Positions 9,231-30,778 of a DNA stretch of 31,470 bases are shown here, one piece after another (position 1 is the first letter of the stretch; the number at the start of each line of letters is the position of its first letter). The DNA is from an uncultured Eubacteriales bacterium (GTDB lineage: Bacteria; Bacillota; Clostridia; Oscillospirales; Acutalibacteraceae): NCBI GenBank assembly GCA_900321905.1, contig ONXZ01000006.1:3754-35223 (forward strand). The letters are read 5' to 3'. The notes beneath the pieces are model-generated. The model ran no database searches. It was given only the letters and a program-made list of their open reading frames with translations, and was not told where the DNA came from. The position numbers and the translations under genes were made by a program.

Positions 9231-9563
9231 GGACAAGTTGCCCGGACGGTTGCGCGCGAAAGCGTGAGGAAAGTCCGAGCAGCACAGAGCAGGATAACGG
9301 CTAACGGCCGCCGAGGGCGACCTCCGGGACAGTGCAACAGAAATAAACCGCCTGCTTTTTGCAGGCAAGGGTGGAAAGGCGAGGTAAGAGCTCACCGAGG
9401 GGGTGGTAACATCCCCTGCCATGTAAACCCTATCCGCTGCAACGCCGACTGGGGAGTTGTTTGCTCGACACATAACCCCGAAGGGCGGCTTGAGCGCGGT
9501 GGTAACACTGCGTCGAGATAGATAACCGTCCACGACAGAACTCGGCTTACAGGGCAACTTGTC
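9231..9563 (+). ncRNA. rnpB: RNase P RNA, bacterial class A
   Basis: Catalytic RNA that removes 5' leaders from tRNA precursors. The terminal helix P1 is visible as GACAAGTTGCC at the 5' end and GGCAACTTGTC at the 3' end. Conserved core segments are present in order: GAGGAAAGTCCGAGC (9267-9281), the ACAGAAATAAACCG region, GGTAAGAGCTCACCG, and near the 3' end CCACGACAGAACTCGGCTTACAG. The domain order is that of the ancestral type A RNA rather than the Bacillus type B. The length, about 333 bases, is normal. No strong terminator follows; the LCP gene starts 64 bases downstream in the same direction. Confidence 0.96.
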
Positions 9564-9626
9564 AAATCAAAATACAGTTTCGTCTGCTTTTTGAGTTAAT
9601 ATGTTAATAAAACCCGAGGTGATTTT

Positions 9627-14025: not shown

Positions 14026-14872
14026 TCGGTGTGCTCTTAAGTACGAACATATATGTTGTCATTACAGACTGACCTGCATATGTTTTGCCAAGAGTACCGT
14101 CAGCATTTGCAAACGGAATCTCGTCGTTAGTTACAGGTGACCATGAAGAAGTTGAACCTGAGTATACTTCTGCATACATATAGTGCTGTCCGTCATAGTC
14201 AGTTTTAACAACAGAACCGTCAGCAGCGATAGAATCGCCATAAAGAGCGGTTGCGTCATAATCAGCAAGAGAAGCAGCAGAATCTGCGTCCTCACCTGTC
14301 TGAGCAGCTGTACCAACTGTAACGGTACGCTTTGTTGAAGTCATTGCGCCGCTTTCTACAACGTAAACAGGCTCAATGTTGTCTGAATAAGCGATTTCTG
14401 CAGATGCACCGTAAACGGTGTTAACGCCGTCCATACGAACTGTTACTGTGAAAGCGTCGCCTGCCTGAAGTGTGTAGTCAGCGTCAAGCGCTGTCTTATC
14501 TGTCTCAAAGTCAGGATCTGCGTCTGCGCGAGCAGCAAGATAAGTGTCAATAACGTCTTTGCTGAGCGTAAGACCTGTTACTGAATACTTAGCTGCTGTT
14601 GAAACAGAACCTGAAGCGGTAAGCTCAGGTGCTGCAAGGCTTGACATTGTAAAGTCAGCCGATGTGTTTTTACCCTTCTGGGAGAGTGGACCCTCAGAGA
14701 AGTTTGATACCCAACTTTCTGCATCAGCAGCATTCTCATTAAGAATACCGAACTGAATATGAACGTCAGGTGTGAAGTCGGAGCCTGCAGCAAGTGCAGT
14801 AAACGGAACAGAGAATGTTACCATAAGCACTGCGAGTAAGCAAGCTAAGACTTTTTTAAATGATTTGCTCAT
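13937..14872 (-). CDS. N-terminal part of the same frameshifted surface protein
   Basis: ATG 14872 lies nine bases behind GGAGG. A clear signal peptide ends near ALAAGSDF (residue ~29), so the product is exported. The region after residue ~130 (LQAGDAFTVTVRMDGV, VYGASAEIAYSDNIEPVYV) has the strand pattern of cohesin-like or related beta-sandwich domains. The frame stops at a TGA (13939-13937) in the codons CTT-CTC-TGA, where the downstream frame continues EGMYAAVNTDN with unbroken coding for another 800 residues. An intact gene would span 14872-11518 and encode roughly 1,115 aa. The gene lies 41 bases after the 353-aa dockerin gene and belongs to the same unit. Confidence 0.78.
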   Translation of the reverse strand: MSKSFKKVLACLLAVLMVTFSVPFTALAAGSDFTPDVHIQFGILNENAADAESWVSNFSEGPLSQKGKNTSADFTMSSLAAPELTASGSVSTAAKYSVTGLTLSKDVIDTYLAARADADPDFETDKTALDADYTLQAGDAFTVTVRMDGVNTVYGASAEIAYSDNIEPVYVVESGAMTSTKRTVTVGTAAQTGEDADSAASLADYDATALYGDSIAADGSVVKTDYDGQHYMYAEVYSGSTSSWSPVTNDEIPFANADGTLGKTYAGQSVMTTYMFVLKSTPSADNPVEFWVHNGNTAGHAKSSTDVLILL

Positions 14873-14913: not shown

Positions 14914-15363
14914 TTAAAGAGTCATATCGTTATAAGCGAACGGAACGCCAACCTCAAAGCCGCTGAATATTGACTTATCAAGTACGTTCGGACCGCCTGA
15001 ACCGTCAAGGTCTGCATCAGGATCGCCTGCGTCGAACCTGCTTGTGAAGCCTGACTTATCAAGTACGTTCATAGTACCGGATGAGTCGTAGTCAACAGCG
15101 ATTACGGGAATTACAGGATAATCTGTAACTTCGTTGCCTGAAAGTGTTATTGTTCTTTCAGGTACGCAGTACTTAACAATTGTAAGAGCAACAGCGCCTG
15201 AAGGAACAGTGATAGAGAACTTACCTTCATTGTTTGTTGTTACAGTTGCAAGTACATCACCCTGTGCGTCAACTGCGTTAACAGTTGCATTTGCTACATA
15301 TGAGTATTCCTCATATGTGGCGCCGTTAACATCCTTGGATACTTTAACTGAACCCGTTACAGT
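14914..15363 (-). repeat. 450-bp duplicated dockerin module, copy 1
   Basis: It aligns without indels to 16079-16528. I count six differences in the first 283 bases (14914-15196); beyond that, the part encoding the CnaB-like domain is more diverged and the match fades after GTTAC near 15360. It encodes the X-module-like domain plus the dockerin. Confidence 0.85.
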
Positions 15364-15975
15364 AATTGATGATGACGGTGACATATCGTAATCAAGGAAA
15401 GGATAATCGGTTGCTGTCTGCTCAAGGTCTTTATAGACGTAAGCAGGCTCGTTACCCTCTTCAAGGTTTGCGATGATGAATGTGTGATTTCTGTCGGTAG
15501 AGAGGTCGAAGAAATCCGCAAAATCGCCGTCTGTGTTTACCTCAACAGTAAGGGTAACCATTACAGTTTCGCCGTCAAGTTCTGTGTAAGTGGTGTTGTT
15601 TACTGTTGAAATTACAATAACAAAAGCGTTATTGTCCTCGTCTTTTTTGTAGCCGCCGTACTCAAAGCCTGAATTTTCAACATCGGCAATTGAACGAACC
15701 TGAGTGATATTGATATCATCAGTGTAATTTGCTGTCATATTGAAGATTGCAACGCTTGAAATATCGGACAGTACAAAATTAACTGTGTATGTTTGACCTG
15801 CAGCAAGTGAGTTGCCGTCAACCTCTTCATCGTTTGAATCGAGGAACTGCGTCTTGATAAATGGAGATTCTTCACCAAGAGGAACAGCCTCTGCTAAAGC
15901 GGTATATGGCATTGCTGCGATAATTAAAACAATGGAAAGGGCAGTAATCATTATTTTAAAAAGTGTCTTTTTCAT
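14914..15975 (-). CDS. Secreted protein: cohesin-like domain, CnaB/carboxypeptidase-regulatory-like domain, type I-like dockerin
   Basis: 353 aa. A signal peptide (about 1-29, ends YTALAEA) leads to a beta-rich domain (about 38-190) with AAGQTYTVNFVLSDISS and VAIFNMTANYTDDINITQV, a strand pattern like cohesins. A second domain (about 205-285, TVTGSVKVSKDV to SGNEVTDYPVIPV) looks like a carboxypeptidase-regulatory or CnaB fold and sits where cellulosomal X modules sit. The C-terminus is a dockerin: two EF-hand-like loops, DYDSSGTMNVLDKSGF and DLDGSGGPNVLDKSIF, with Asp at 1, 3 and 12 and Asn at 9. Dockerins bind cohesins through such paired calcium loops. ATG 15975 has only a weak GTGA upstream. 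No catalytic domain is present, so it is a connector or adaptor rather than an enzyme. Confidence 0.83.
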   Translation of the reverse strand: MKKTLFKIMITALSIVLIIAAMPYTALAEAVPLGEESPFIKTQFLDSNDEEVDGNSLAAGQTYTVNFVLSDISSVAIFNMTANYTDDINITQVRSIADVENSGFEYGGYKKDEDNNAFVIVISTVNNTTYTELDGETVMVTLTVEVNTDGDFADFFDLSTDRNHTFIIANLEEGNEPAYVYKDLEQTATDYPFLDYDMSPSSSITVTGSVKVSKDVNGATYEEYSYVANATVNAVDAQGDVLATVTTNNEGKFSITVPSGAVALTIVKYCVPERTITLSGNEVTDYPVIPVIAVDYDSSGTMNVLDKSGFTSRFDAGDPDADLDGSGGPNVLDKSIFSGFEVGVPFAYNDMTL

Positions 15976-16078: not shown

Positions 16079-16528
16079 TTAAAGAGTCATATCGTTATAA
16101 GCGAACGGAACGCCAACCTCAAAGCCGCTGAATGTTGACTTATCAAGTACGTTCGGACCGCCTGAACCGTCAAGGTCTGCGTCAGGATCGCCTGCGTCAA
16201 ACCTGCTTGTGAAGCCTGACTTATCAAGTACGTTCATAGTACCGGATGAGTCGTAGTCAACAGCGATTACAGGAATTACAGGATAATCTGTAACTTCGTT
16301 GCCCGAAAGTGTAATTGTTCTTTCAGGTACGCAGTACTTAACAATTGTAAGAGCAACAGCAGTGTCAGGAACTTCAATCTCGAACTTACCTTCAACGTCT
16401 GTTGTAGTTGTTGCAACAACCTCACCCTGTGCGTCAACAGCGTTAACAGTTGCATTTGCTACATATGAGTATTCCTCATATGTGTCGCCGTTAACATCCT
16501 TGGATACCTTAACCGCACCTGTTACGGT
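16079..16528 (-). repeat. 450-bp duplicated dockerin module, copy 2
   Basis: Partner of 14914-15363, at the 3' end of the 2,132-aa gene. In the dockerin part the two copies differ by one amino acid (Ile or Thr in NVLDKS-x-FSGF). Confidence 0.85.
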
Positions 16529-19500
16529 GTAGCCTGTCGGCTCAGGTTCAGCAGTGAACTCTTCAAGGTTGTTTTCAGCAATGATGAGGTGTGATTTAGC
16601 AGTGTAGCAATCACTTACTTCTGCGTCTGTTGAGTCAGCGTCAGCGCGGCCTGCCTTAGCAGTTGTAACTGCCTCGCCGAGTGCGTCGATGTAAGCCTTC
16701 CAAGACTTGTCAGTGTAAAGTTTGTTGCCCTCTGCGTCCTCGTTAACGATTACGCCGTCCTTAACTGTACCGAAGCGAACTGCATTTGCTGTAGTAGCAA
16801 TTTCAGTGTAGTTCTTAACTTCATCAGCTTCGTACTTGCCCTTTGATGAGTAAGCGAATCTGTGAGTTGTGCCGTCAGTAGCAGGTGTGTAAGCGCTGTA
16901 TGCATTGTCAGATGCATGCTGAATCTCGTTTTCGAGTCTGTTGCCTGTCACATATGAGATATGTGTTGCGTCTGCTCTGCTCTTATAGAGTTCATACAGA
17001 CGGATTGCCTCACTAATCTCAACTGCAGAAGCAGATGTTGAATAGGTCGGCTGGTATACATAAAGTGTACCTTCGATAGGATCGCCGATTTCATAGCCGT
17101 CAAGTTTGCTGTAAACATCGCCGTCCTTGGTGTAGTATTCTGTGTCATACTGATATGTTGTATCAGTTGTAGCAACAGGATTCCACTCAGTTGAAAGGAT
17201 ACCTTCAGCCTCTTTTGCAACCTTAACCATAGCCTCGTAGTTTGCTACGATGAAGTTAACGTTGTTAAGACCTTCGCGGTCCTCACTTACGCTCTCAACG
17301 ATTCTGTCAGCAGCGTTCTTAACGTTAGCCTTAACCTGTTCCATCCAATAAGAGAGGTTGTTATCAAGCTGTTCGTAACGTGAACGATACTCGTCACCGT
17401 CGTTAGGTTTAGTGATTGTCTGACCTTCAGGCATCTTGTAAGTCGGGTCGTCAGTTGAGTTAACTTTCTCGCCGTTCTCATCTCTGTATACATACTGAAT
17501 CTGGCTGTAAAGAGGATTCTTGTCGGCGTCAGTTGCCTGAACATCGCCGTCAGTGAGATACGGATAATCGTAAGTCGTTGTATCCCAAACCTTTTCATAT
17601 TTAACAGAGTTAGCAATGTACCATACGCCGTCAACCTTAACAACAGCCTGGCCTGTAGCGTCCTTACCGCCTGTTACGTCAGAATCGGTAAGAGCGTGAG
17701 TAGCGTCAGCATAGTAAATCGGAAGCTGGCAGTCAACATCGTTGTACCAATAGCCGTCTTCGCCCTTAGTAGCTTCAACAAGCATCTTGGAAGGAAGGTT
17801 AACTGTTGTAGGTACAGGCTTGTAAGCCTTGTCGCCGTATGTTGCAGTTGAATCTTTTTTAACTGTTGCCTTGATTGTTGTAGAACCGAGGTAACGAGCG
17901 TTAGTAGCGTTGATTGGCTTAGAAATCTCTGCAACTGCGAGCTGGAATGCGTTTTGAAGTGAATCGTAAATTGATACATCTTCAAGGTCATCCCTCTGAT
18001 AAGCAGCCATAGTCTGAATATCAGCGTCGTATGCCTGCTGAAGTGTAGCAGCCTGAGTATCATCTGCTACATAAATGTTAAGTGTTGTCTTAGCCTCGTC
18101 GTTATTTCTGAACATATCAAGGTTAACAGTATCAGAGAACTTGGAAAGTTCTGTAGAACCGTCATACTTGAGGAATACCTTAGATGAATCTGCAGTATTC
18201 TTCTTAAGTCTGTTCTTACCAACGCCGAAGTATACACCGGGAACAGGAGTACCCCAAGAGATAGATACCTTAGAGTTCTGACCGTAGTTACCCTGGAGAA
18301 GACCGGTTGTAGGCTGTACGAATACAGCGCTGTAGAGGTACTCTTCAGTACCGTCTGATTTTACACGTGCAAGTTCACGGATAACACCCTTAACATAACC
18401 TGTTGCGAGTGCTTCGTCAAATGTCCAAACAACGTGAGGACGGGTTGTGAAACCGTCAGAGTTCTTAATCGTGTCGGAAAGAGCACCGATTTCAGCCTCT
18501 GTGTAACCCATATAACCGCCGCCAAGACCGCCGCCTGAACCGTCATCGTTAACAGTTGAATTGATAGCGTTAGTGTTCTTGGTGCCACGGTACCATGTGC
18601 CATCATAATAGTAGTCATAAAGGTCATAGTTGATGATGTTACCGGTTGCTCTGTCAATAGCAGCATAAGCAAGAGTTGTATCCGAGCCGCTTGCTGTTGA
18701 CTGAGTTGAAGCAACTTTGCCGTTTGTTACAGCATAGTACTTTGTACCGCTCTTAGCATATGTGAAGATACCGTCCATAGCCTTATATCCGTCACCGAAC
18801 AGCGTGCTATAGAGGTTCTTCATATAGAATGTCTTAGAGTTGATTGAGTTAGGATCGCTCATCGGGATAATGAAATCCTTAGGAGTATAATACTCAAAAC
18901 CATTGTTACCGCTTGGACACTTGGTGTAGTTAGCAGTTGTTGTGTTGTTGTTAAGAGTATTACCGTTGTAAGCAGTTTCAGCCCAACCCTTTTCAGTTGT
19001 GTGGTACATATAAGTCTTAGTCTGGAGACCTGTGTAAAGCGCAGTGCCGCCCTCGCCAAGAGTTACGTTGTAAGTAATTGTAAATGTGTAAAGAATGTTA
19101 GTTGAAGGTGCTTTACCTGTAATAGCAATCTTTGCAGTTTGCTCAGGTGCGACGTCAGCAGTTGTCTTTGCAACGCTTACAAGTGGTGTTGTCGGTGTAG
19201 TTGTGCTACCGTCACTTGTAACAGCACTGATGTCAACGCCTGTAACCTTAACATAAAGTCTGTTGTCCTGAACTACCTGTCCGTTAGTTCTGCCGGTTGT
19301 GTTATACGCTCTGTTAACACCGATAGAACCGTTCTTGATGTTGAGGTAGTTAGTATCAAGGTTAGAGTTTGCTGTAAGACCTGATACAGACGGATTGTCT
19401 ACAGATGCTGTAACAGCGCCGAACTTGTGCGCACCAATCTGAGGTGCAAATTCAGGCATAAAGCTGTTAACTGCTGTTGCAGCAAACATAGCCGCAGTCC

Positions 19501-22477
19501 AGGCACCCTTAGGACCTGTTGCGTTTACGCCGTCAAAACCGCCGAGTGCTGCGTACAGGTTAGCAACAATAAGCGACAGATAACCGAGGTCGTTACTTGA
19601 TGTAACAGTACCAACGTTCTGATAGCCCTTATAGTTACCAAGCCATGAAACATGGAGCATTGTGTCGAACGGTGATGATGAGCCAAGCTCTGAATATGTC
19701 GGAAGAACATGAGCGTAGCCCTTGCCGTAACGCGGACCAAGGAGATTGTTGATGAACGAAACGAGAATGTCGTTATAAACGAGTTCGTCAACGCCCTTCT
19801 TTGTAATCGGGTCAGAACATACGATTGTGTAAAGTCTGTTGAGGAAGTTTGTAATACCGCCGCCATTGTCAGAAATCTCAAGGATACCTCTGATAATGTC
19901 ATTGTAAAGCAGGTCATACGAATTGAACTGTCCGTCATAAGACGATGAACCGTACTGAAGTTGACCGAGTACAGGTAAGAGTTTGTTGATTACGTTATCA
20001 ACATTTACCCAGATTGTGTTTGTCGGCTGAACAAGCGACTTACCTGTTGAATCAGCAACACCGAGAAGTGTTGCAACAGACTTGCTCTGGATGTTTGTAG
20101 CAGCGCCAGCCTTTGTGCCTGCATATTTGCAGTCAGAAGCATAGTAGCAAACTACTGAGTTAGCAAGTGTCCAGAGGTCGTTTGTGCCTTCTGTGTAGAA
20201 GCCTGCAGCACCGGGTGCAGCAGCGTCATAAGCGTTCCACTCATTACCGCTTGAATCACGAACAGGAACGAATGCCTGTACAACGTAACCGACAGCGTCA
20301 CGAACCATAGGAAGAATGCAGGTGTTGAAGTCTGCGTTAATCATTCCGTCTGAATCGTAAGTGATGAGTGATGAGTAATCTCTGCCGGGAAGTACATATG
20401 AGAGATATTCAGCAAGTGCAAGATAGCCTGCGCCCTCTGCGTCCTTAACTTTATCCCAGTCTTCCTTGTGGATTGTGCTTGCAATACTTACATTCTGTAC
20501 TACAGCAGCGATACCAAGCGGAATAGCAGCCTCTTCAAAGTTCTGCTCTGTGAGGTTTGTAGTTCCGTTGTAAGTGATGTTGTGCTTCTTGTAGAATGTG
20601 TTGAAGATGTACGGGTCTGCAGCGTTTGCAGCGTACTCAAACATTGCAAGTGCATTAGAAACAAGTGTATCAACGCTTGTCTTAATGTTAGCGGCTTTGC
20701 CTGAACCTGTGAGGTCAAGGTTGCCTGTTGTTACCATAGTAGGTACTGTAAGGTTTGTGCCTACAACGCCTCTCTCTGAACCCTGGAAGCCGATGTTGTC
20801 GCTGTTCGGGAAGAGAACCTTTGTAGCAGCAACGAGAAGGTCGTTGAGAGCTGCAGGAATTGATGAATAAGCGTCGTTATCAAATGCTTCTGTAACGAAA
20901 TCGTCAATTTCCTTTGTGCCTGTCTGCTCAAAGTAGAGGTTGATAGGACCTGTCTGTACGTCAAAGTAGTAATCAGCCATTGGGCTGTAACGAAGTTTAA
21001 CGAAGAGTGACTTGGACTTGATATCTCTCCAGTTGTTCTTAGCGTCTTCAGCGATGCTACGGTCAAATGTGAGGTTAGTCTTGATGTACTCTTTCATCTC
21101 TGCTGCTGTCATATCATAACTGCCGCAGATTTCAGCAATCCATTCGTCAACCTTGTCGTACATGTCTGCGCCCTTATTTGCTGTGCTCCAGCCGTATTTA
21201 GCTGAACGCCACAAGAAATAATGGTTGTCGAAGTTTGTACCGCGATTGTTCTCGGTATCATCTTCGTTGTCGTAATTTACATGAACAAGACCGAGTGTAT
21301 CCTTGAGAGCAGTCTTCCAGGCAATCTTTGCTGCGGAATAAGCAATATCAAGAAGGTTGTCAGTCTTATTAACAACAAGTTTCTGGTCACCGTAACGGAA
21401 AAGACGAACGTTACCGTCATCTGTATAGTAGAGGTTAGCGTCCCATGTTGTGCCGTTTGCAGCATTGTATCCGTTAACGATTGTTGCAGTGTTTTCCTCT
21501 GTGAACTCAATGCCCTGTTCCTCAGCATAAGCTGCGAGCGCCGCATAACGAGTCTTTGAAGAATCCGCTGCTACGTCGAGATCTTTGTTAGCCTCAGTGT
21601 ATGTAATCTCTGCATTAATCTGCTGGAGAAGTTGTGTGCTGAGAGCCTCGAAAAGTCTGTCGTCAAAGTTCCAGTTTTTGAGGTTACCGTTGCTGTCAGT
21701 CTGCTTGTAATAAGCAAGTTCTTCCTCTGACCACCACTTTGTGTTGGTAAAGATAAGATTTGCTACTACGTTGTAAGCAAGGTCATTCTGATAATTGTCC
21801 CACATTCCGAGCGTATCTTTGAGCAGGTCGAAGATATCGCTGCTGCCTGCGATATTTTTGATAACACCGCCAAGGATTGAACCAAGGTTAAAGTCACCGA
21901 TAACAAGTTTACGGAAAACGTTGTTGCCGTCCTTAGTGTTATCATAAAGCAACTGTGCTACTGAAAGAAGAATTTCTTTTGCAGTGTACTGTGAGCGGTA
22001 ACTTCTGCCGCACTTTGATACTACGTCTGATGAAGATGTTGAATAGTTGTTTGCCAGATCAGCAACACCGTTGAGGTTGATGTTCTTAACATCGCCGCCG
22101 ATAAGACCGCCGTATGAATCAAGGAGGTCGTCAGCCTGCTCAACTGTGTAAATAAGACCGTCTACGCTGTCCATATAAGCGTCAATCTTAATGGTAGCGA
22201 CAACGATGTTCTGGCTGAAGTGGTATTCATCAAAACCAACAAGGTTCTTCATTGTCCAGGAGAGGTTAGCGTCTGCCCAGTCAAGAATAGCCTCTGCTGT
22301 CTGCTCGTCAGTCTGCTCTGCCCATGCAAGGAAGTTGTATGCGAGGTTCTCATCATGATAATCCTCAGCCCTTGCGTAAGCGGTAAGCACGCCTGTAAAG
22401 CAAGAAATAGCCATCAAAGCGGAGAGGAACAAAGCAATCAGTTTCTTTGTGAAAATTTTAGATTTTTTTGATTCCAA
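16079..22477 (-). CDS. Giant secreted protein (2,132 aa) with FIVAR-like region and C-terminal dockerin
   Basis: The N-terminus has a Lys-rich start and signal peptide (to about residue 36, GVLTAYARA). Residues ~40-1000 are mainly helical and Leu/Asn/Tyr-rich without a recognised domain; a beta-rich stretch follows (about 1000-1500, with NRLYVKVTGVDISAV and TNILYTFTITYNV). Residues ~1750-1990 look FIVAR-like, best seen in SWKAYIDALGEAVTTAKAG. The C-terminus repeats the 353-aa neighbour: X-module-like domain (TVTGAVKVSKDV on) and a dockerin with two NVLDKS loops. The start is TTG 22477; GGAGG lies 11 bases upstream, slightly far. It heads a minus-strand unit of four genes. No glycosidase, protease or adhesin family is recognisable, and the N-terminal 1,700 residues may be a new family. 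Confidence 0.85.
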   Translation of the reverse strand: MESKKSKIFTKKLIALFLSALMAISCFTGVLTAYARAEDYHDENLAYNFLAWAEQTDEQTAEAILDWADANLSWTMKNLVGFDEYHFSQNIVVATIKIDAYMDSVDGLIYTVEQADDLLDSYGGLIGGDVKNINLNGVADLANNYSTSSSDVVSKCGRSYRSQYTAKEILLSVAQLLYDNTKDGNNVFRKLVIGDFNLGSILGGVIKNIAGSSDIFDLLKDTLGMWDNYQNDLAYNVVANLIFTNTKWWSEEELAYYKQTDSNGNLKNWNFDDRLFEALSTQLLQQINAEITYTEANKDLDVAADSSKTRYAALAAYAEEQGIEFTEENTATIVNGYNAANGTTWDANLYYTDDGNVRLFRYGDQKLVVNKTDNLLDIAYSAAKIAWKTALKDTLGLVHVNYDNEDDTENNRGTNFDNHYFLWRSAKYGWSTANKGADMYDKVDEWIAEICGSYDMTAAEMKEYIKTNLTFDRSIAEDAKNNWRDIKSKSLFVKLRYSPMADYYFDVQTGPINLYFEQTGTKEIDDFVTEAFDNDAYSSIPAALNDLLVAATKVLFPNSDNIGFQGSERGVVGTNLTVPTMVTTGNLDLTGSGKAANIKTSVDTLVSNALAMFEYAANAADPYIFNTFYKKHNITYNGTTNLTEQNFEEAAIPLGIAAVVQNVSIASTIHKEDWDKVKDAEGAGYLALAEYLSYVLPGRDYSSLITYDSDGMINADFNTCILPMVRDAVGYVVQAFVPVRDSSGNEWNAYDAAAPGAAGFYTEGTNDLWTLANSVVCYYASDCKYAGTKAGAATNIQSKSVATLLGVADSTGKSLVQPTNTIWVNVDNVINKLLPVLGQLQYGSSSYDGQFNSYDLLYNDIIRGILEISDNGGGITNFLNRLYTIVCSDPITKKGVDELVYNDILVSFINNLLGPRYGKGYAHVLPTYSELGSSSPFDTMLHVSWLGNYKGYQNVGTVTSSNDLGYLSLIVANLYAALGGFDGVNATGPKGAWTAAMFAATAVNSFMPEFAPQIGAHKFGAVTASVDNPSVSGLTANSNLDTNYLNIKNGSIGVNRAYNTTGRTNGQVVQDNRLYVKVTGVDISAVTSDGSTTTPTTPLVSVAKTTADVAPEQTAKIAITGKAPSTNILYTFTITYNVTLGEGGTALYTGLQTKTYMYHTTEKGWAETAYNGNTLNNNTTTANYTKCPSGNNGFEYYTPKDFIIPMSDPNSINSKTFYMKNLYSTLFGDGYKAMDGIFTYAKSGTKYYAVTNGKVASTQSTASGSDTTLAYAAIDRATGNIINYDLYDYYYDGTWYRGTKNTNAINSTVNDDGSGGGLGGGYMGYTEAEIGALSDTIKNSDGFTTRPHVVWTFDEALATGYVKGVIRELARVKSDGTEEYLYSAVFVQPTTGLLQGNYGQNSKVSISWGTPVPGVYFGVGKNRLKKNTADSSKVFLKYDGSTELSKFSDTVNLDMFRNNDEAKTTLNIYVADDTQAATLQQAYDADIQTMAAYQRDDLEDVSIYDSLQNAFQLAVAEISKPINATNARYLGSTTIKATVKKDSTATYGDKAYKPVPTTVNLPSKMLVEATKGEDGYWYNDVDCQLPIYYADATHALTDSDVTGGKDATGQAVVKVDGVWYIANSVKYEKVWDTTTYDYPYLTDGDVQATDADKNPLYSQIQYVYRDENGEKVNSTDDPTYKMPEGQTITKPNDGDEYRSRYEQLDNNLSYWMEQVKANVKNAADRIVESVSEDREGLNNVNFIVANYEAMVKVAKEAEGILSTEWNPVATTDTTYQYDTEYYTKDGDVYSKLDGYEIGDPIEGTLYVYQPTYSTSASAVEISEAIRLYELYKSRADATHISYVTGNRLENEIQHASDNAYSAYTPATDGTTHRFAYSSKGKYEADEVKNYTEIATTANAVRFGTVKDGVIVNEDAEGNKLYTDKSWKAYIDALGEAVTTAKAGRADADSTDAEVSDCYTAKSHLIIAENNLEEFTAEPEPTGYTVTGAVKVSKDVNGDTYEEYSYVANATVNAVDAQGEVVATTTTDVEGKFEIEVPDTAVALTIVKYCVPERTITLSGNEVTDYPVIPVIAVDYDSSGTMNVLDKSGFTSRFDAGDPDADLDGSGGPNVLDKSTFSGFEVGVPFAYNDMTL

Positions 22478-22668: not shown

Positions 22669-23116
22669 TAAATTTTTGAGATTTTTTAACCTATTATATA
22701 CAGATGTCCCAAATTGTGAATATTTTGTGAACTTCCCCCTTGACAAATGCCGCTGTTTATAGTATGATTCAAATGCAATATTTACAATTTGTTAATAATC
22801 TTTTTACATTTGTTCAAAATTGGATTTTACACTTTTACAGTTGTGTATGTAAAGTTTAAATCTTTACACGGTGGCTGAATGACAAGTTTGTCCCCTTTAC
22901 ACAACACCATTTTGTGGCGGTATTAAGCGAAAAATCAACATATTGAATACGGCGTAAAGCAGGACGGCTTGCAAAAATTTCGGGCTCGTCCTGTCTGATT
23001 GACTTTTTTTGCAAATTTCGGCAAGCGTATTTTGCCGACTTCAGCAAATTGTTAACAGTTGTTGACAAATATGGTAGAAAAATTTAATAATTTATGAATT
23101 AATTTTGAATTTTATA
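22669..23116. other. Central part of the divergent regulatory gap
   Basis: No credible gene. AT-rich, with several inverted repeats: CAGGACG/CGTCCTG (22960-22993), GGCAA/TTGCC (about 23022-23037), GACAAgttTGTC near 22880, and paired CTTTACAC motifs (22862 and 22898). A TTGACA with downstream TATAGTATGAT (about 22740-22768, plus strand) could be another promoter. The number of dyads suggests binding sites for regulators of one or both giant genes. Confidence 0.45.
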
Positions 23117-23219: not shown

Positions 23220-23247
23220 TAAATCATTAGAAAAAGGAGAGATGATT

Positions 23248-26200
23248 ATGAAAACGAGCAAAAAATTACTAAGCCTGTTTTTGGCATTAGTAATGATCAT
23301 TACATCATGTAGTGTTGGTTTCACCGCCTTTGCAGCAGACGGAAACAAAACTGACTCCAACAATACATATTGGAATGACGGCACGGATGCTAAAGCAGCA
23401 TTCGATTCACTCACAACACTCACAGATACCTACGTTCCGCAATTGCTGAATATTCCGGCAATTAAGAAGATTCTTGAAGAGAATCTCGGAATGAAGGTAA
23501 CCAGCACAACAAGCATCAGCGATGTTGTAGCAGGCGCTTCGCCAATGATTTTCGGCCTTTTGGGCGGCACAGTCGACAAAGAGGCTATTATCAAAGAAAT
23601 TAAGGGCGGCGCTGATTACACCAAACTTGACGACTACTGGTTCTCGTTCCTTGACAACGACAAAGCACAGGTAGACTTCTACACGCTTTACAATTTCTGC
23701 AAGGCAAACCAGAATGCTTCCGGTGAGGTTGGAGAATACGCAAGAGAAACTCTGCCAAAACTCCAGAAAATCAGCAATCAGTACAACGAGGCTGCTGCTA
23801 AGTTCGGCGCTGACATGGACGAAGCCAACAACGCTCTCGGAAACGACTTTAACAACTGGCTTACTTTTTTTGACCCTTCAATGACTAAAATTGAGGTCAG
23901 AAATATTGTGGCAGACGGCGTTAAATTTAAGGACGCTGCTCCGGGCAAGGCTAAGTTCCTTATTGACTATCTGAACGCTATGTTCGAGTCCTACGGCTCA
24001 AATGAAAAGGTTGAAAACGTTGCCGACCTGTTCTACTATGCAGGCGGCGGTGACGAAGGCAACGCAAGAACGTATCTTGCAAGGTTTATGGGTACTGCCC
24101 TTCTCGGCGGCGCGCAGATTAAACCGGCAGGCGCTTCAACCGCAATTACATTTGATAACTACGAAGACGTGCTCGGTGCAACATATTCACTTGAACAGTA
24201 CTGCACAGACAACAGCATTGACTACGAACACGCTTCCGCTGCAAAGAAAAAAATAATTGAAGAACATTATTCAAGTCATCTTGCAACTATGGCTCTTATG
24301 GCTGTTCTGCCTGAGAGGAACACCGACCTTTCGGCTTCCTCACCTTATTATGAGGAAATGTGCCTTGGTCTTATGGTTTACACAGGCGCGTTCGGCGACC
24401 TTGAAGCCTGCAAGAAAACTGTAAACGACGCGAAGATTACAGACGAGCAGTTTAACACATTCTGCAAGCACCTCAAAGATGACCTTCATCTCACAGGTTA
24501 TGATAAGAATGCGATTGTTACATATCTTAATAGTGATGAATGCCCGTTCTCACCGCTTGCTACCAAGTACTTTATGGGATACATCACTTCCTCACAGTCT
24601 GAAAATATCATTGCTCCGTTCTTTGAAAAGTGCCTTACAGACACAAGCGCTGCAAAGGCTCACGTTGTTGAAGATAACGATTACAACACCGTATACCTGT
24701 TCAAAAAAGGCAAGGACGGCAATCCGCTCGGTATAATCGACAGACTTAACAGCGTTATGGCTTCTGAGGTGCTGATTGACAAGTTCGGCAACGAAATCAC
24801 TCAGAAAGGTAGCGCAGGTTCCTGCAGAGATATCGCAGAGCCGGCTCTGTTCACCGAGGACTTCTTCAACTACAACTACGGCATTAAGCCGGGTATCAAA
24901 AACAAATACGAGTACACAGACGATATCAAGATTAAAGATGAACTTATGGTTGCGGCTGTTAACACAACGCTCAACAACCTGCTTTCAACATACTTTAATC
25001 CGGAAGACCCGAACTACGACCCGACAGTCGGCGGAATTATTGACGCCGCGCTTAAAGGACTTCTTGAAACTGACGTTAAGTTGTTTGATAAAAACGGCAA
25101 CGGTGTGCTCAACGACATTTGGCTCAAACTTTACGAAAACCCTGTAGAGGAACTGTTCAACCTTCTTCCTACAATCACAGTCGTACTTGATGAACTTCTT
25201 GTTCCGATTCTCCTGAACAAAGACGGCGACAAGTACAACGGTACAGGCAGAGGCGTCCTTTACAGCCTTCTCTGCACAGGCGAAGGCATACTTGCAAAGT
25301 ACACTCAGGACGCAGGCAGCCCGGTAGGTCTCGGCGCAATGGCTATCGACCTTAACAAGGCGCTCCCTGCTATACTCAACTGGATTACAGGCAACACGCA
25401 GAAGGCTGTTGATATTGTCGGCACATATGACGGCGGCACATACGACGCAAACGTTCCGCGCTTCCTCAACATCTACGTTGCAGACGCAGCAATTGCAAGT
25501 TTCCAACTCAACGGCGGACTTGAGGCTATTCTCAAGAACCTTGACGCTTTCAAGGGCGACAACGCTTACCTTGCAAAAGGCATTGACGAAGCAGTTACAG
25601 AGATTGCTAACTTTGCTCTTGACGCAGTTAACGACTATCTTGCCGAAAACGAAAACGACAAGAGATACGACAAAGAAGGCAGCGTTACACAAAACGGTCT
25701 TAACAATATCTTTGTAGCACTTCCTGAACTCATTGATTCAATCGGTCAGAACTTTATTCAGAAGTATGGCGTTGATTCCGACTGGACATATACCTGGAAC
25801 GGTAAGATTACAGGCGACGGTCAGTCACCTGATACACAGAAGAGGAACACCACCCTCACAGACTTTAAAAACCTTGCAAAGGTTAACAAGCCTGAACTGG
25901 TGCTCAACAACTTTGTTGACATTCTTATCGGCAACTGGATTAACGGTATGCTTGATATTGTTAACGACACAATATCTGACCCGAACAACAAAATTACTTC
26001 TAACCTTATCCTTGTGCAGGGACTCCTTGACGCACTCGGCGGATTTGGCGAAAAGTCAATCATCACCGACGTAGTTAACGGTCTGTTCCAGCTCAAGAGA
26101 TCAGACAAAGCGTCCTTCACTCTCACTAAGAGAGAAAAGACAAACTTTGTAGGTTTCAGTAACGAGAGCGGCTTCTTCCTCATCTCGAACATCCAGTACA

Positions 26201-29200
26201 AGAAGGCTGGTCAGGACAGAGGTCTTATCCCGTTCATCTCAACAATCATTAACCCGAACGACAAAAACAAGGCAGATTACAAGATTGGCAGAGCGATTAA
26301 CGCTACAACGCCAAAACTTGCAAGTTCATCAAAAGCCAATAAGTCGGCTGCAGGCACGGACTACAAAAAACTCCTTGCTAAGAAAAACGTCAAGGCAGCA
26401 CAAAAACTTGTAGACGCGCTCGACACATTGCTTTCATCTCTCCTTGCAAATACATCAGTTAACGGTTTTGATTTAGACGCAAACGATAACGTACTTTCAG
26501 GCGTTGTATCATTTGCATCTGCATATCTCGGATATCAGAACACTAACGATATAGTTAAACTTATCAACAACTATCTGTACTACATCAACGGTGAAAAGAG
26601 CACTGTTAAGAGCAAGTCAGGTAAAATCGGCACACAGCCTACTAAGGCAGGCAACGTTGATAAGAAGAAGATTTACACAACAGCAAATCTTTCTAACCTC
26701 GTTATCCAGACATACTCGCTGCTTGAGAACATAATCGACTACCTGTTCTACAACTCAGAGAGCGGCTTCCTCAAGACGAGAGACCCGCACATGCTTGTAG
26801 CAGACGCAGCATACGGTCTTATCTCGCCTGACGCAGTAGCAGTTCGCATGAGTTCGAAGTACAGCGACACGGTTAAGGTTCTCCAGAGCAAGGATTATCT
26901 CAACTGGAACTCATTTAAGGTTAACATCACAAACGCTAACAAGAAAGACGGCAACTATCAGAAGAACTACCTGAAGTTCGACTTCTCAAAGGGTGATAAG
27001 AAAGCCTTTTATGCAGGCCTTGGCGAAACCTTCTCAGGCGTAGCCGCTATCATCGGCGTACTTCTTACTGATTCCTGCGTATCCGCACAGGACCGCAACA
27101 CAAACCTTTACAGCGTAGTTCTGCACCCGGTTATGTCAAGCCTCGCTAAAGCAACAGGCGGCAGCGGCGTTATGACACCTGCAGCATTCGCAAAGGCAAC
27201 TCCGGCAGACCAGCTTATCAAGGGTATCCTTACTCCTGTATCAAGCACAATCGGTCAGCTTTACGGCGCACCTGCATCATTCCTTCTCAATGTAGTTAAG
27301 GGTCTTGCAGCAGTAGTTGACGATGACTCAATCAAGGGTATCATCGGCGGCGCTATCGGCATTGTAAACGGTCAGTTAGGCGGCGTGGTTAACGTTGTAG
27401 CCTACCTGTCACCTACACTCGCAGCAAAACTTGCAGACGTATTTAAGAATCTTGTAGGCGGCGTTTCAGGCGCTACATCATCACTTCCGCAGAAGAATAT
27501 CGTTGTTAACCTTCTCAACGGTATCTCAATCGGCAGCATGAAACTTAAGGACATCATCAACCTTAAAGCAATCAACTGGAAGAAACTTGCTGCTGCTAAA
27601 TCACCTGCAGAGGTACTGCTCCTCATCTACGGTTACGTAATTGACACCGTACTCGGTTCAGAACTTGTAAGCGGTCTTATCGACAGTTTCTCACCGGGTC
27701 TCACAAAGATTCTCAAGAAACTCAACGCTGTTGAAATTCTCAACATTCTCGCAGACGTAATCGCTTCTGTTCAGAGTCCTACGGAAATCTTCTGGACCTT
27801 CAAAGAATATGCAGGCAAGATTACAAACACATTCGTATACCCGCAGGGTATCCTCGCATCTGACGCTTCTAAGGCTGTCGGTCAACTTGACGACATTGTT
27901 GCAAACGTATTCCCGCTTCTCAATGCACTCGGCGTAACAGATGTTAAAGACCTTAAGGAAATCGTAAATGGCGCGCTTTATAAGAACGAACTTCTTACAA
28001 AACTTTCAAAGGCTGTTTACGGCGCACTCAGCAAGGACACCGTAGGCACAGTAGTCAAGGCTCTCGGCATTGACGTAACACCTAAGGGCTTTGCTAAATA
28101 TCTCACAGACACGAGTTACGGCGCAACTTACTCAAGCGCTGCTAAGAAACTCAAGAAGGTTAAGAGTTGGGATAAGATTGGCGACAACGACCTCAACTGG
28201 GGCTTCACAGACGGTAGTGCTATGGCACAGCGCGGCTTCATCCGCGGTCTTGCAGCCGCTCTCCGTCCGCTCAACGACCTGCTTTCAGTATTCCTTGCAG
28301 AGGGCAGCATTAAAGACGCTATCGACCTTGACGTAGTTAAGATTGCTAAGATTCTTGACCTCAAGGGCAAGACAAACCTCGGCAGCGGCGAATACGGCGC
28401 TACACTCGACTACAAACTCAAGGGCGGTATCCTTGAAATCGGTATCCGTTCAAATGTTAAGACGGCTAACAACAAGCCAAATGTAAGAAACGAAATCAAG
28501 GTTGATGTTAACGCAATTGCCAAAGACCTTCAGGCAATACTTAACGACGCTAAACTCGGTCTTGGTACAAACGGCTACGAAAGTGCTGTTATCCCGCTTC
28601 TTGAAGCATTTATGTGCAGAGGCGTCAAGACTTACAAGACTTACCTCAACGATTACAAGAAGGCTAAGGATAACCTCCTTATCGACGTAATCGACCCTGT
28701 ATTCAACCTTGTTGACGACGTACTTGCTAATCCGTTTGACACAGTTACAAAGATTCTGCCGAACGTTGCATACTTCATTGACAGCAACGGCGTTGCACAG
28801 GCAGTGGGCAACCTGCTCGCACCTATCACAGGCAAGGACGGAATCCTCGGCGTACTCAGCAAGCACGGTCTTAACATTGATAAGCTCGTTAAACTTCTCT
28901 TTGCAAAAGACCTTGGCACTATCGTGACAGACGCACTTGGCATTAACGCTAAGTTGACAATCAAACTCACAGATATGTCAAAGACTAACGTTCAGGTAAT
29001 TGTTGTACCGCTTATCAACTCGATTCTCAAGAAGAAAAAACTTCCTATCAGAATTCCTGATATCAGTTTCAAGACTCTTGCAAGCCACGGCTCAATCGCT
29101 GTTGTAAGCAGTGCGGCAAGGAACTCACAGGGCAAGTTCACAACCCGCCGCGTAATCTCAAGACAGGGCGAAACACTTATCGCTGTTCTCAGATACGTAT

Positions 29201-30726
29201 CAGATGTTCTTATTAAGAACGCTATGGGTCTTAAGAAGATACTCACGGGTATCGACGCAATCAAGAAGAACGACACAATCAAGAGCGTTATCGAAGTTGT
29301 ATTTAACCAGATTGCTCTTGCAAGCCGCGACGATATCGTTCGCGCAGTATTCTACTTCCTTACAGAGCAGGAAACTGACAAGTTCTTCGATTACTCAAAC
29401 TTCACCTACAAGGACAACTACAAGTTCTCCTGGGGTGAAATGGACGAAGAGTTCTGCCGTAAACTGAATCCTATGCTTGACGGCATGATAGGCTCACTCC
29501 TTGAGGGCGGTCTTGCAGGTCTTGTACAGGAAAAACTTTACACAGACGAACTCATCGCAAAACTCGCAACAGGTCTTTACGGCGCAGTTGAAGGCGTTAA
29601 GATTAACGACGATATCGGCTCGCTGACCAACCTGCTTGCAATGACAGACATCGACTTCTCAACAGGCAACGTTTCATCGCTGCTTATGAACGAGAGATAC
29701 GGTCTTACCTATCCTGCAGCCGCAACTGTAATCCAGTCGGCAGGCAGTTGGAAGAACGTTAAGGCTGAGGACCTCAAGTTCGGTGTTAAGGACAGAAATT
29801 CATTCCTTCACGCACTCACCGCAGTGCTTCGTCCAATCTTTGGCGTACTCGATGTACTCCTCAACGACGCGGCACTCAACATCTTCGACCTTGTTAAACT
29901 TCCGGGTTCTGACGGATATACATCAACAATCGTTCCTCTGCTTGAGGCATTCGGTGTATACAACATCAAGACTCAGTATCAGTACAGAGAGGATTGCTAC
30001 AAAGCATACGACAACGTACTGCTTGACATCCTCAATCCGCTGTGGGATAAGGTAGAGGATATCCTCAATGCTCCGCTTCAAACGCTTATGAGCATTCTTC
30101 CTAACCTGTCGCTGTTCTTCGCAAACGACGGACTGCTTCAGATAGTTGATAACCTTCTCACACCTGTATCGGCTCTGCTTGACGCAATCAGACCTATCGT
30201 TGATATCAACAAGGTTATTGAAGCACTTGATGTTGATATTCCTGGTCTCCTTAAGGAGAAAGTTGGTCTTACACTCACTAAGTTTGACCTCTATGACCTT
30301 CCGGGAACACTCAAGCCGCTCGTAGGCGCTGACAACGTGGTTGACACAATCAACAGCGTGCTCAAGGTTATCAAGATTAAGGGCAAACCGCTCGGACTTG
30401 TTCTTCCGTCAATTGATTGGTTCCGTCTCGCAAGCCACGGCAAGTTCATCACAAACGGAACTTCACAGGCTGCAGCATTTGGCAAGAGAATCTATGTTAA
30501 GGCTGATCAGGATGAAACACTCATCGCACTTCTCAGATTCCTCATCAACACAATCAATTACAAGAACAACTACAACCAGATAGTTAACCTCATCACAGGA
30601 CTCCTTGGCGACAACGTTGACGAAAGCCTTGCAGGCACAATCAACGACGTACTTGGAATGCTCAAGGGCGACGCGGACACAGTTATCGCCGACCTCGTTA
30701 AATTTCTCCAGCAGATCGCAGGTTAA
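23248..30726 (+). CDS. Giant secreted helix-rich protein (2,492 aa) with three long degenerate repeats
   Basis: No known family recognised. I choose ATG 23248, eight bases after AGGAG; longer in-frame starts fall in the hairpin leader. A signal peptide ends near VGFTAFAADG (residue ~33). The rest is rich in Leu, Ile, Asn, Asp and Lys, predicted mostly helical, with few Cys and no membrane anchor, LPxTG, SLH domain or dockerin. Three repeats of 400-520 aa can be aligned by hand from about residue 1200. Each has a Tyr/Trp box (YLNW-SFKV; SWDKIGDNDLNWGFTD; SWKNVKAEDLKFGVKD), then AFYAGLGE / GFIRGLAAALRPL / SFLHALTAVLRPI, an IPLLEAF-type box with LLIDVIDP, a box such as LPSIDWFRLASHG, and an ETLIALLRF box. 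It has its own promoter and terminator. It could be a surface-layer, scaffold or adhesin protein; the function is unknown. Confidence 0.87.
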   Translation: MKTSKKLLSLFLALVMIITSCSVGFTAFAADGNKTDSNNTYWNDGTDAKAAFDSLTTLTDTYVPQLLNIPAIKKILEENLGMKVTSTTSISDVVAGASPMIFGLLGGTVDKEAIIKEIKGGADYTKLDDYWFSFLDNDKAQVDFYTLYNFCKANQNASGEVGEYARETLPKLQKISNQYNEAAAKFGADMDEANNALGNDFNNWLTFFDPSMTKIEVRNIVADGVKFKDAAPGKAKFLIDYLNAMFESYGSNEKVENVADLFYYAGGGDEGNARTYLARFMGTALLGGAQIKPAGASTAITFDNYEDVLGATYSLEQYCTDNSIDYEHASAAKKKIIEEHYSSHLATMALMAVLPERNTDLSASSPYYEEMCLGLMVYTGAFGDLEACKKTVNDAKITDEQFNTFCKHLKDDLHLTGYDKNAIVTYLNSDECPFSPLATKYFMGYITSSQSENIIAPFFEKCLTDTSAAKAHVVEDNDYNTVYLFKKGKDGNPLGIIDRLNSVMASEVLIDKFGNEITQKGSAGSCRDIAEPALFTEDFFNYNYGIKPGIKNKYEYTDDIKIKDELMVAAVNTTLNNLLSTYFNPEDPNYDPTVGGIIDAALKGLLETDVKLFDKNGNGVLNDIWLKLYENPVEELFNLLPTITVVLDELLVPILLNKDGDKYNGTGRGVLYSLLCTGEGILAKYTQDAGSPVGLGAMAIDLNKALPAILNWITGNTQKAVDIVGTYDGGTYDANVPRFLNIYVADAAIASFQLNGGLEAILKNLDAFKGDNAYLAKGIDEAVTEIANFALDAVNDYLAENENDKRYDKEGSVTQNGLNNIFVALPELIDSIGQNFIQKYGVDSDWTYTWNGKITGDGQSPDTQKRNTTLTDFKNLAKVNKPELVLNNFVDILIGNWINGMLDIVNDTISDPNNKITSNLILVQGLLDALGGFGEKSIITDVVNGLFQLKRSDKASFTLTKREKTNFVGFSNESGFFLISNIQYKKAGQDRGLIPFISTIINPNDKNKADYKIGRAINATTPKLASSSKANKSAAGTDYKKLLAKKNVKAAQKLVDALDTLLSSLLANTSVNGFDLDANDNVLSGVVSFASAYLGYQNTNDIVKLINNYLYYINGEKSTVKSKSGKIGTQPTKAGNVDKKKIYTTANLSNLVIQTYSLLENIIDYLFYNSESGFLKTRDPHMLVADAAYGLISPDAVAVRMSSKYSDTVKVLQSKDYLNWNSFKVNITNANKKDGNYQKNYLKFDFSKGDKKAFYAGLGETFSGVAAIIGVLLTDSCVSAQDRNTNLYSVVLHPVMSSLAKATGGSGVMTPAAFAKATPADQLIKGILTPVSSTIGQLYGAPASFLLNVVKGLAAVVDDDSIKGIIGGAIGIVNGQLGGVVNVVAYLSPTLAAKLADVFKNLVGGVSGATSSLPQKNIVVNLLNGISIGSMKLKDIINLKAINWKKLAAAKSPAEVLLLIYGYVIDTVLGSELVSGLIDSFSPGLTKILKKLNAVEILNILADVIASVQSPTEIFWTFKEYAGKITNTFVYPQGILASDASKAVGQLDDIVANVFPLLNALGVTDVKDLKEIVNGALYKNELLTKLSKAVYGALSKDTVGTVVKALGIDVTPKGFAKYLTDTSYGATYSSAAKKLKKVKSWDKIGDNDLNWGFTDGSAMAQRGFIRGLAAALRPLNDLLSVFLAEGSIKDAIDLDVVKIAKILDLKGKTNLGSGEYGATLDYKLKGGILEIGIRSNVKTANNKPNVRNEIKVDVNAIAKDLQAILNDAKLGLGTNGYESAVIPLLEAFMCRGVKTYKTYLNDYKKAKDNLLIDVIDPVFNLVDDVLANPFDTVTKILPNVAYFIDSNGVAQAVGNLLAPITGKDGILGVLSKHGLNIDKLVKLLFAKDLGTIVTDALGINAKLTIKLTDMSKTNVQVIVVPLINSILKKKKLPIRIPDISFKTLASHGSIAVVSSAARNSQGKFTTRRVISRQGETLIAVLRYVSDVLIKNAMGLKKILTGIDAIKKNDTIKSVIEVVFNQIALASRDDIVRAVFYFLTEQETDKFFDYSNFTYKDNYKFSWGEMDEEFCRKLNPMLDGMIGSLLEGGLAGLVQEKLYTDELIAKLATGLYGAVEGVKINDDIGSLTNLLAMTDIDFSTGNVSSLLMNERYGLTYPAAATVIQSAGSWKNVKAEDLKFGVKDRNSFLHALTAVLRPIFGVLDVLLNDAALNIFDLVKLPGSDGYTSTIVPLLEAFGVYNIKTQYQYREDCYKAYDNVLLDILNPLWDKVEDILNAPLQTLMSILPNLSLFFANDGLLQIVDNLLTPVSALLDAIRPIVDINKVIEALDVDIPGLLKEKVGLTLTKFDLYDLPGTLKPLVGADNVVDTINSVLKVIKIKGKPLGLVLPSIDWFRLASHGKFITNGTSQAAAFGKRIYVKADQDETLIALLRFLINTINYKNNYNQIVNLITGLLGDNVDESLAGTINDVLGMLKGDADTVIADLVKFLQQIAG

Positions 30727-30743: not shown

Positions 30744-30778
30744 CAACCGCTTAGGGTAACCTGGGCGGTTGCTTTTTG
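30744..30778 (+). terminator. Rho-independent terminator of the 2,492-aa gene
   Basis: CAACCGC (30744-30750) and GCGGTTG (30765-30771) enclose a second stem AGG-gtaa-CCT; CTTTTTGTTT follows. It starts 17 bases after the stop codon. Confidence 0.85.

Follow-up and report, generated by a model that had tools for sequence, protein, structure and literature searches.

What is the giant protein encoded at this locus, and what might a bacterium use so large an exported product for? The window, by which we mean the whole stretch of DNA analysed (31,470 nucleotides from an uncultured Eubacteriales bacterium), contains a 7.5-kb reading frame for a protein designated P0001. An earlier note, made from the letters alone, had described its product as a costly secreted protein that may define a new family, built from three helical repeats, and had suggested a scaffold, a surface coat or a giant adhesin. 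All coordinates given here are window positions, and the assembly of the window's genome is 84% complete.

An intact gene for an exported protein

The features of the P0001 gene are as follows.

23062..23091, + strand: promoter-like site, TTGACA-18-AATAAT (11/12 consensus match; region modestly enriched over shuffles)
23234..23239, + strand: ribosome-binding site AAGGAG, read from sequence
23248..30726, + strand: P0001 gene, intact 2,492-aa frame (831 matching proteins at E<=1e-3; dN/dS 0.09-0.31 against four relatives)
23248..23334, + strand: signal peptide, residues 1-29 ([AVST]xA site in 110/112, strict lipobox in 75/112 and C21 in 106/112 long forms)
30744..30771, + strand: intrinsic terminator, 12-bp stem and T-run (shuffles give 0.1)

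It can be seen that the frame is uninterrupted, as had been claimed, running from an ATG at 23248 to a stop codon ending at 30726 with zero internal stops, and that it is followed by the terminator-like stem and T-run that the earlier note had also read. P0001 was found at a single place in the window's genome (84% complete). The promoter-like site agrees with the consensus at 11 of 12 positions, but whether it should be called strong is doubtful, because shuffled sequences already contain 4.6 such sites on average (sd 2.3), compared with 10 in the upstream region. The encoded protein has a simple layout, in which the signal peptide is followed by an N-terminal region of ~1,100 aa unrelated to the repeat units and then by three diverged units.

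The signal peptide (MKTSKKLLSLFLALVMIITSCSVGFTAFA) is well supported, since 110 of the 112 long forms aligned there keep its [AVST]xA site. It also contains a lipobox-like ITSC, and for this reason lipid anchoring of P0001 may be possible; a strict lipobox is present in 75 of the same 112 proteins. The cysteine at residue 21 is kept in 106 of them, although the later AxA-type site is also kept.

Other means of attachment were sought in P0001 and its relatives. Among the matches listed, an LPxTG-like motif in the last 60 aa was found in 0 of 120 long forms, and none of these 120 reaches a hydropathy of 1.8 in the last 120 aa, as a C-terminal transmembrane helix would; in P0001 this value is reached by the signal peptide alone. 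P0001 has no SLH or Gram_pos_anchor Pfam domain at E<=10, in a search whose filters lose most matches above ~0.1, and it has no dockerin or cohesin match in Pfam or NCBIfam. The statement that no usual anchor and no dockerin are to be seen holds for P0001 itself, but it had passed over both the lipobox-like ITSC and the dockerin- and cohesin-like modules of the neighbouring gene products, which are described below. No S-layer, LPXTG or transmembrane anchor was found, which speaks against a place for P0001 at the surface, and the protein might be released from the cell.

Three diverged copies of one unit

Beyond the signal peptide, P0001 can be divided into four parts.

23335..26622, + strand: N-terminal region, residues ~30-1125 (segments of residues 31-1030 score no higher than 8.2% probability with the pooled units; no PHROGs match)
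26623..27612, + strand: unit 1, residues 1126-1455, diverged and partial (unit HMM E 1e-9; profile comparison)
27829..29349, + strand: unit 2, residues 1528-2034, with a beta insertion (unit HMM E 2.5e-129; structure model)
29422..30696, + strand: unit 3, residues 2059-2483, the most conserved part (unit HMM E 4e-125; model pLDDT 86.8, pTM 0.84)

The borders come from an HMM built on a sample of 160 sequences, comprising second, third and short-form units of the family itself, and the window's own units 2 and 3 were among the sequences from which this sample was drawn. Smith-Waterman alignment of unit 2 with unit 3 scored 350 when long segments were used and as much as 269 when pieces of 300 aa were compared; the best of 400 shuffled pairs scored 65. 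Unit 1 scored only 66-82 against the other copies by this method, and its place as the third copy was secured by profile comparison, which matched residues 1283-1447 to 1772-1979 (probability 98.4) and 1235-1438 to 2169-2397 (98.3), and the pooled-unit profile to residues 1031-1530 (99.8, against 0.5 for a reversed control).

The three repeats that had been proposed are therefore present, and the positions given for them, 26850, 28108 and 29690 (residues ~1201, 1621 and 2148), correspond to the same box of the three units. In self-comparison the off-diagonal signal persists after residue 1200, where the repeats align with one another. The proposed length of ~400-520 aa needs adjustment, since the HMM borders give units of ~330-510 aa with unit 1 partial. 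Five sequence boxes had also been listed (PLLEAF, LASHG, ETLIA-LR, LRPL-type and Tyr/Trp); when searched for by regular expression each was matched in two of the three units; unit 1 has only diverged counterparts.

The idea that the N-terminal region consists of further, hidden units was rejected, as residues 31-1030 stayed at or below 8.2% against the pooled units, where reversed controls reached up to 3.0. Two weak local hits within it (66-257 to 1999-2145, probability 58.5, and 602-686 to 2258-2335, probability 43.8) were both unconfirmed in the pooled-unit comparison. Column identity is low at residues 200-550.

Fold, conservation and the possibility of a binding or catalytic function

Structure models predict that the unit is mostly helical, with a confident model for unit 3, so the description of P0001 as a helical protein is borne out for its units. 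The structure alignments excluded truncated loci, loci containing runs of N and those with additional units. A fold search with the unit model gave no significant match among PDB or viral structures. Likewise, no accepted match of the unit was obtained in Pfam, NCBIfam, PHROGs or PDB sequences, and profile searches of these libraries gave nothing above cut-off along the length of P0001, leaving most of the protein without a characterised domain. A weak match to DUF6712 (PF20459) at residues 1567-1633 was rejected: it scored 20.4 bits against a cut-off of 25 and was seen in 1 of 66 units at E 0.02.

Across these 66 units the invariant or near-invariant residues are mostly G, P, A, L, Y, N and D, and none is an invariant Cys, His, Ser or Lys. 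The scarcity of invariant polar residues makes a structural role for the units easier to envisage than a catalytic one. Giant exported enzymes do exist, and P0001 could in principle be a secreted enzyme of unspecified class, yet no enzyme family of Pfam or NCBIfam matches it, as the earlier note had anticipated, and the units form an array in which position is kept. Taken with the few invariant polar residues, this makes an enzyme very improbable.

The codons of P0001 are under purifying selection, which is strongest in unit 3. Against four relatives, dN/dS was only 0.09-0.16 in that unit; it was 0.19-0.22 in unit 2, 0.22-0.27 in unit 1 and 0.21-0.31 over residues 31-1100. These values are rough because dS reaches 1.55. 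The faster evolution of the N-terminal half is what might be expected of a binding region, and it raises the alternative that P0001 attaches to mucin, fibre, food particles or other cells through its N-terminal region or its units, with the array only presenting the binding part. Such an adhesin or substrate binder would suit a giant exported protein with many relatives in rumen or gut samples. However, no carbohydrate-binding, Ig-like or adhesin domain was found in P0001, nor a wall anchor, and conservation peaks in the C-terminal unit rather than at the tip; we therefore regard this alternative as unlikely.

Distribution of the family

Of 7,987 scored candidates, 831 proteins match P0001 at E<=1e-3. 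Among the 120 matches listed none has a precomputed Pfam domain, and where names are given they are mostly 'hypothetical protein'. The suggestion of a new family thus stands in the sense that no known family was matched, but with 831 members at this threshold it is not a rare one. Our literature search, which had most subscription journals outside its scope, found no paper on this repeat family among those listed, and the main text of PMC13079761, on Eubacterium coprostanoligenes, has none of the terms sought.

The repeat family was located at 68 loci when species genomes were scanned. The carriers include the cultured Eubacterium coprostanoligenes ATCC 51222 (L042) and two named Clostridium sp. 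CAG, and many relatives come from rumen or gut samples according to the record titles; one matching record labelled Bacteroides is probably mislabelled. Within the window's own bacterial family, 17 of 120 and 48 of 398 genomes match, the two counts resting on different queries and thresholds, and some of six loci of the species-genome scan could share species with genomes of the 398-genome sample. In a class-level sample the only match among 291 genomes was the window's own. As far as sampled in genomes of known taxonomy, the repeat family is restricted to one bacterial family. A phage origin was rejected: 73 pattern-matching stretches were found in viral contigs, none encoding a relative, and there was no PHROGs match.

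The long-form gene is divergent from a gene of one conserved cluster

The genes upstream of P0001 lie on the opposite strand.

16079..22477, - strand: P0002, 2,132-aa secreted protein with an X-dockerin-type C-terminus (same cluster divergent at 46/47 loci)
14914..15975, - strand: 353-aa secreted protein with an X-dockerin-type C-terminus and a possibly cohesin-like N-terminus (20-homologue profile)
11518..14872, - strand: c2-family gene with a weakly cohesin-like N-terminus, split into overlapping frames 13937-14872 and 11518-14025

When 20 homologues of the 353-aa protein were combined in a profile, it matched the X-dockerin of a scaffoldin (4wi0) with an E of 2.1e-13; Dockerin_1 is found in 13 of these homologues, with the window copy not among the clear hits, and Cohesin in 1. 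The C-terminus of P0002 matched the 353-aa protein profile with a probability of 99.9. P0002 itself was considered as a relative of P0001 and rejected, as it has no profile similarity to the units and none beyond the signal peptide region. For c2, a profile of 20 homologues matched cohesin 5g5d_A at E 2e-5, with Cohesin in 1 of the 20 at E 0.005, and c2 is related to the N-terminus of the 353-aa protein (probability 97.4). The c2 homologues at other loci are one frame as far as the contig pieces reach, and the split in the window is either a frameshift or an assembly error. An RNase P RNA of bacterial class A is also present in the window (9234-9565, + strand, 287 bits).

Pfam Cohesin has no match in the window's genome (84% complete), and Dockerin_1 (PF00404) is over its cut-off at 4 places there. 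Since PF00404 also matches control genomes (9 of 14 at E<=1, 2 of them over cut-off), only these 4 matches were counted.

The arrangement recurs. Of the 47 loci (the window among them) where 1 kb or more of upstream sequence is available, 46 have a gene of one cluster, P0002 in the window, in divergent orientation to the long-form gene, the exception being L039; 13 loci with less than 1 kb and L061-L069 were left out of the count. Two genes of the X-dockerin cluster are present at 40 of the 47 and c2 as well at 37. On the downstream side (L002-L060), NUDIX and NTP_transf_5 genes were each seen at 34 of 60 loci, a melibiase-like gene at 33 and a small multidrug export gene at 26, in counts for which many loci are cut short; in the window these genes do not adjoin P0001.

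Codon adaptation of P0001 (0.705) is close to the mean of the ribosomal genes (0.732, 19 genes, self-included), with 0.714-0.772 for the three neighbours and 0.445-0.645 for eight other window genes, but secY reaches 0.703 as well. This fits the costly and abundant product that had been supposed, and suggests that P0001 is heavily expressed.

Judged from sequence, the best explanation would be that P0001 serves as structure or scaffold at the cell surface or in the extracellular matrix, a reading to which we give a little less than an even chance. It is the simplest because the protein is, by its codon usage, heavily used, is exported, is built from units, has no enzyme signature and sits at a fixed locus with dockerin-type partners. 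Three tandem helical units would make a long, semi-rigid chain, and this chain may work together with the cohesin- and dockerin-type proteins of the divergent gene row. As P0001 has no dockerin or cohesin match, such contact is suggested by gene position only.

A two-unit form precedes an ABC transporter gene

The unit is also found in short proteins of ~870 aa, with two units and their own signal peptide (e.g. L064-L069, hypothetical proteins). A profile of P0001 residues 1455-2492 aligned to the short-form alignment with a probability of 100 (hhalign, E 3.5e-78, 752 columns), and by this comparison the short ABC-linked proteins and P0001 are one family, with homologous units in the same order. 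The short-form profile is matched by 255 proteins, and the 123 of 750-999 aa have 1.9-2.0 units each. Among the short-form matches listed, P0131 carries a precomputed Pfam label, PF19226, which was below cut-off when tested. The short forms differ from the long ones at the C-terminus, where a hydrophobic stretch of at least 1.8 in the last 120 aa was found in 106 of 120 short against 0 of 120 long forms, and a stricter test for an uncharged stretch was passed by 42 of 120 against 0 of 120 (both among the matches listed).

Of 30 testable loci, 26 have a MacB/FtsX-type ABC transporter gene on the same strand directly after the short-form gene. The two genes are -14 to +61 nt apart in 25 of these, and in L107 the gap is 387 nt. 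The 30 testable loci remained of 35 after four duplicates (L091-L094, the same genes as L119, L105, L112 and L113) and L122, which ends at the gene, had been set aside. At the other four (L117, L118, L120 and L121) an ABC neighbour is absent within 1-1.5 kb, and all four score lower against the profile. The neighbour at L064 has ABC_tran and FtsX domains in one chain, as in a MacB/FtsX-type (type VII) ABC transporter; the other neighbours were assigned by BLAST similarity only. MacB was the best NCBIfam model for two neighbours, below its cut-off (285 and 274 against 966 bits).

MacB-type transporters couple ATP hydrolysis to work outside the membrane and not to carriage of a substrate across it, according to PMC5985334, and FtsEX of Bacillus subtilis is reported to need membrane co-factors (PMC6705773). 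Both points, like the gene order, would suit an alternative in which the unit binds an extracytoplasmic ligand or lipid together with mechanotransmission transporters of the MacB/FtsX type, the giants being soluble, multi-site versions. One carrier, Eubacterium coprostanoligenes, converts cholesterol, which is so far a mere coincidence. Against this, the window's genome (84% complete) has no short form and no full-length ABC-FtsX orthologue, with only ATPase-domain matches to the transporter of L064, and the four lower-scoring relatives lack the ABC neighbour. We consider ligand handling by P0001 doubtful.

The same FtsX-type partner could point to the cell wall, with the module regulating or positioning peptidoglycan enzymes as FtsX partners do. 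A second observation in this direction comes from P0244 (2 sequences, 1,563 aa, on a 4,973-nt contig), in which the N-terminal 1,297 residues are P0001-like and the last units are replaced by choline-binding-like repeats and an L,D-transpeptidase domain. P0244 may be a gene fusion or an assembly chimera, though; it is the one case of its kind, from a short contig, and no such gene accompanies the long form, so that a role in wall machinery seems quite improbable. For the structural or scaffold reading, the link of the compact relatives to an ABC transporter means that the ancestral function may have differed from that of a scaffold.

Growth of the array

Unit-bearing frames of 1-9.4 kaa are found in other genera of the same bacterial family, several per genome. 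The largest (G003:C13:15207-43425, L139 and L081) is an open frame of 9,406 aa with a signal-like start, ~950 residues without units and then 11.4 unit-profile lengths; three further genomes (G509, G574 and G625) have frames of 9,088-9,354 aa. The protein of L062, whose start lies beyond the locus, is at least 6,775 aa long; it contains 11.2 units and has a hydrophobic helix at its C-terminus. By HMM coverage the number of units rises from ~2.0 in the short forms to ~2.7 at 2.25-2.75 kaa, ~4.8 at 3.5 kaa and 11.2 in L062. Eight giant paralogues of these other genera (L083-L086, L089, L090, L095 and L096) share an aromatic amphipathic C-terminal tail of the type NGLI-FFQKI-FFK-LF.

Among 82 units placed in a tree, those standing first in eight long forms make up one clade (100/100) and the later units another (21 rows, 100/99), which is split by position with arms supported at 93/83 and 100/96. 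Because the tree splits by position, the units have kept their places and have not been homogenised. In five-unit forms, units 4 and 5 group with units 2 and 3, indicating that a pair of units was duplicated. The last two units of P0060 are sisters that group with unit 3 of the others, and the last unit of L062, which adjoins its membrane helix, falls with the short forms' second unit (99/94). By analogy, position-specific clades would fit proteins in which each block has its own place. The direction was probably from short form to giant, though the root of the tree is a midpoint.

Discussion

We propose tentatively that the unit is a surface module, of which a compact two-unit version may sit in the membrane beside an ABC-FtsX machine, and that the giants could have arisen as the array grew by duplication of units and the long forms lost the membrane helix. 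A bolder version would have a new fold arising, in one family of gut bacteria, as the outer part of an ABC-FtsX system and multiplying into giants of 2,500 to >9,000 aa that form a novel surface apparatus with cohesin/dockerin-like partners; this we think rather unlikely. If these proposals are right, they would show how a part of a membrane machine turned into an exported giant, and would reveal a further surface structure in a little-known portion of the gut microbiota.

The family is of wider interest in that a domain without a library, sequence or significant fold match builds some of the largest proteins of these bacteria, with a codon usage that suggests heavy expression, in a group that is common in rumen and gut samples and includes a cultured species. 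The two-unit relative beside the ABC-FtsX gene provides a small, expressible entry point, and the divergent cohesin/dockerin-like genes suggest candidate partners.

Giant bacterial adhesins and S-layer proteins are mostly beta-rich or anchored by SLH domains or LPXTG motifs. P0001 is likewise very large, exported, repetitive and probably abundant, but differs from them in its mostly helical units and in that no anchor was found. With the partners of MacB and FtsEX (MacA-type adaptors, SweC/SweD), the short form shares a predicted extracytoplasmic, membrane-anchored location and a gene next to that of the ABC protein; it differs in that no sequence relation to any library family was found, and the long form has no ABC neighbour. 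Cellulosomal scaffoldins and X-dockerin proteins resemble the locus through the X-dockerin-type C-termini and weakly cohesin-like parts of the neighbours. The idiom of exported modular proteins is similar, but there are no enzymes in the locus; P0001, which has neither module, was rejected as a cellulosome component, and this remains a lead for its neighbours. Finally, the short two-unit relatives differ from P0001 in having two units only, mostly a C-terminal hydrophobic helix and an ABC-FtsX gene next door, and share with it the same unit and a signal peptide of their own.
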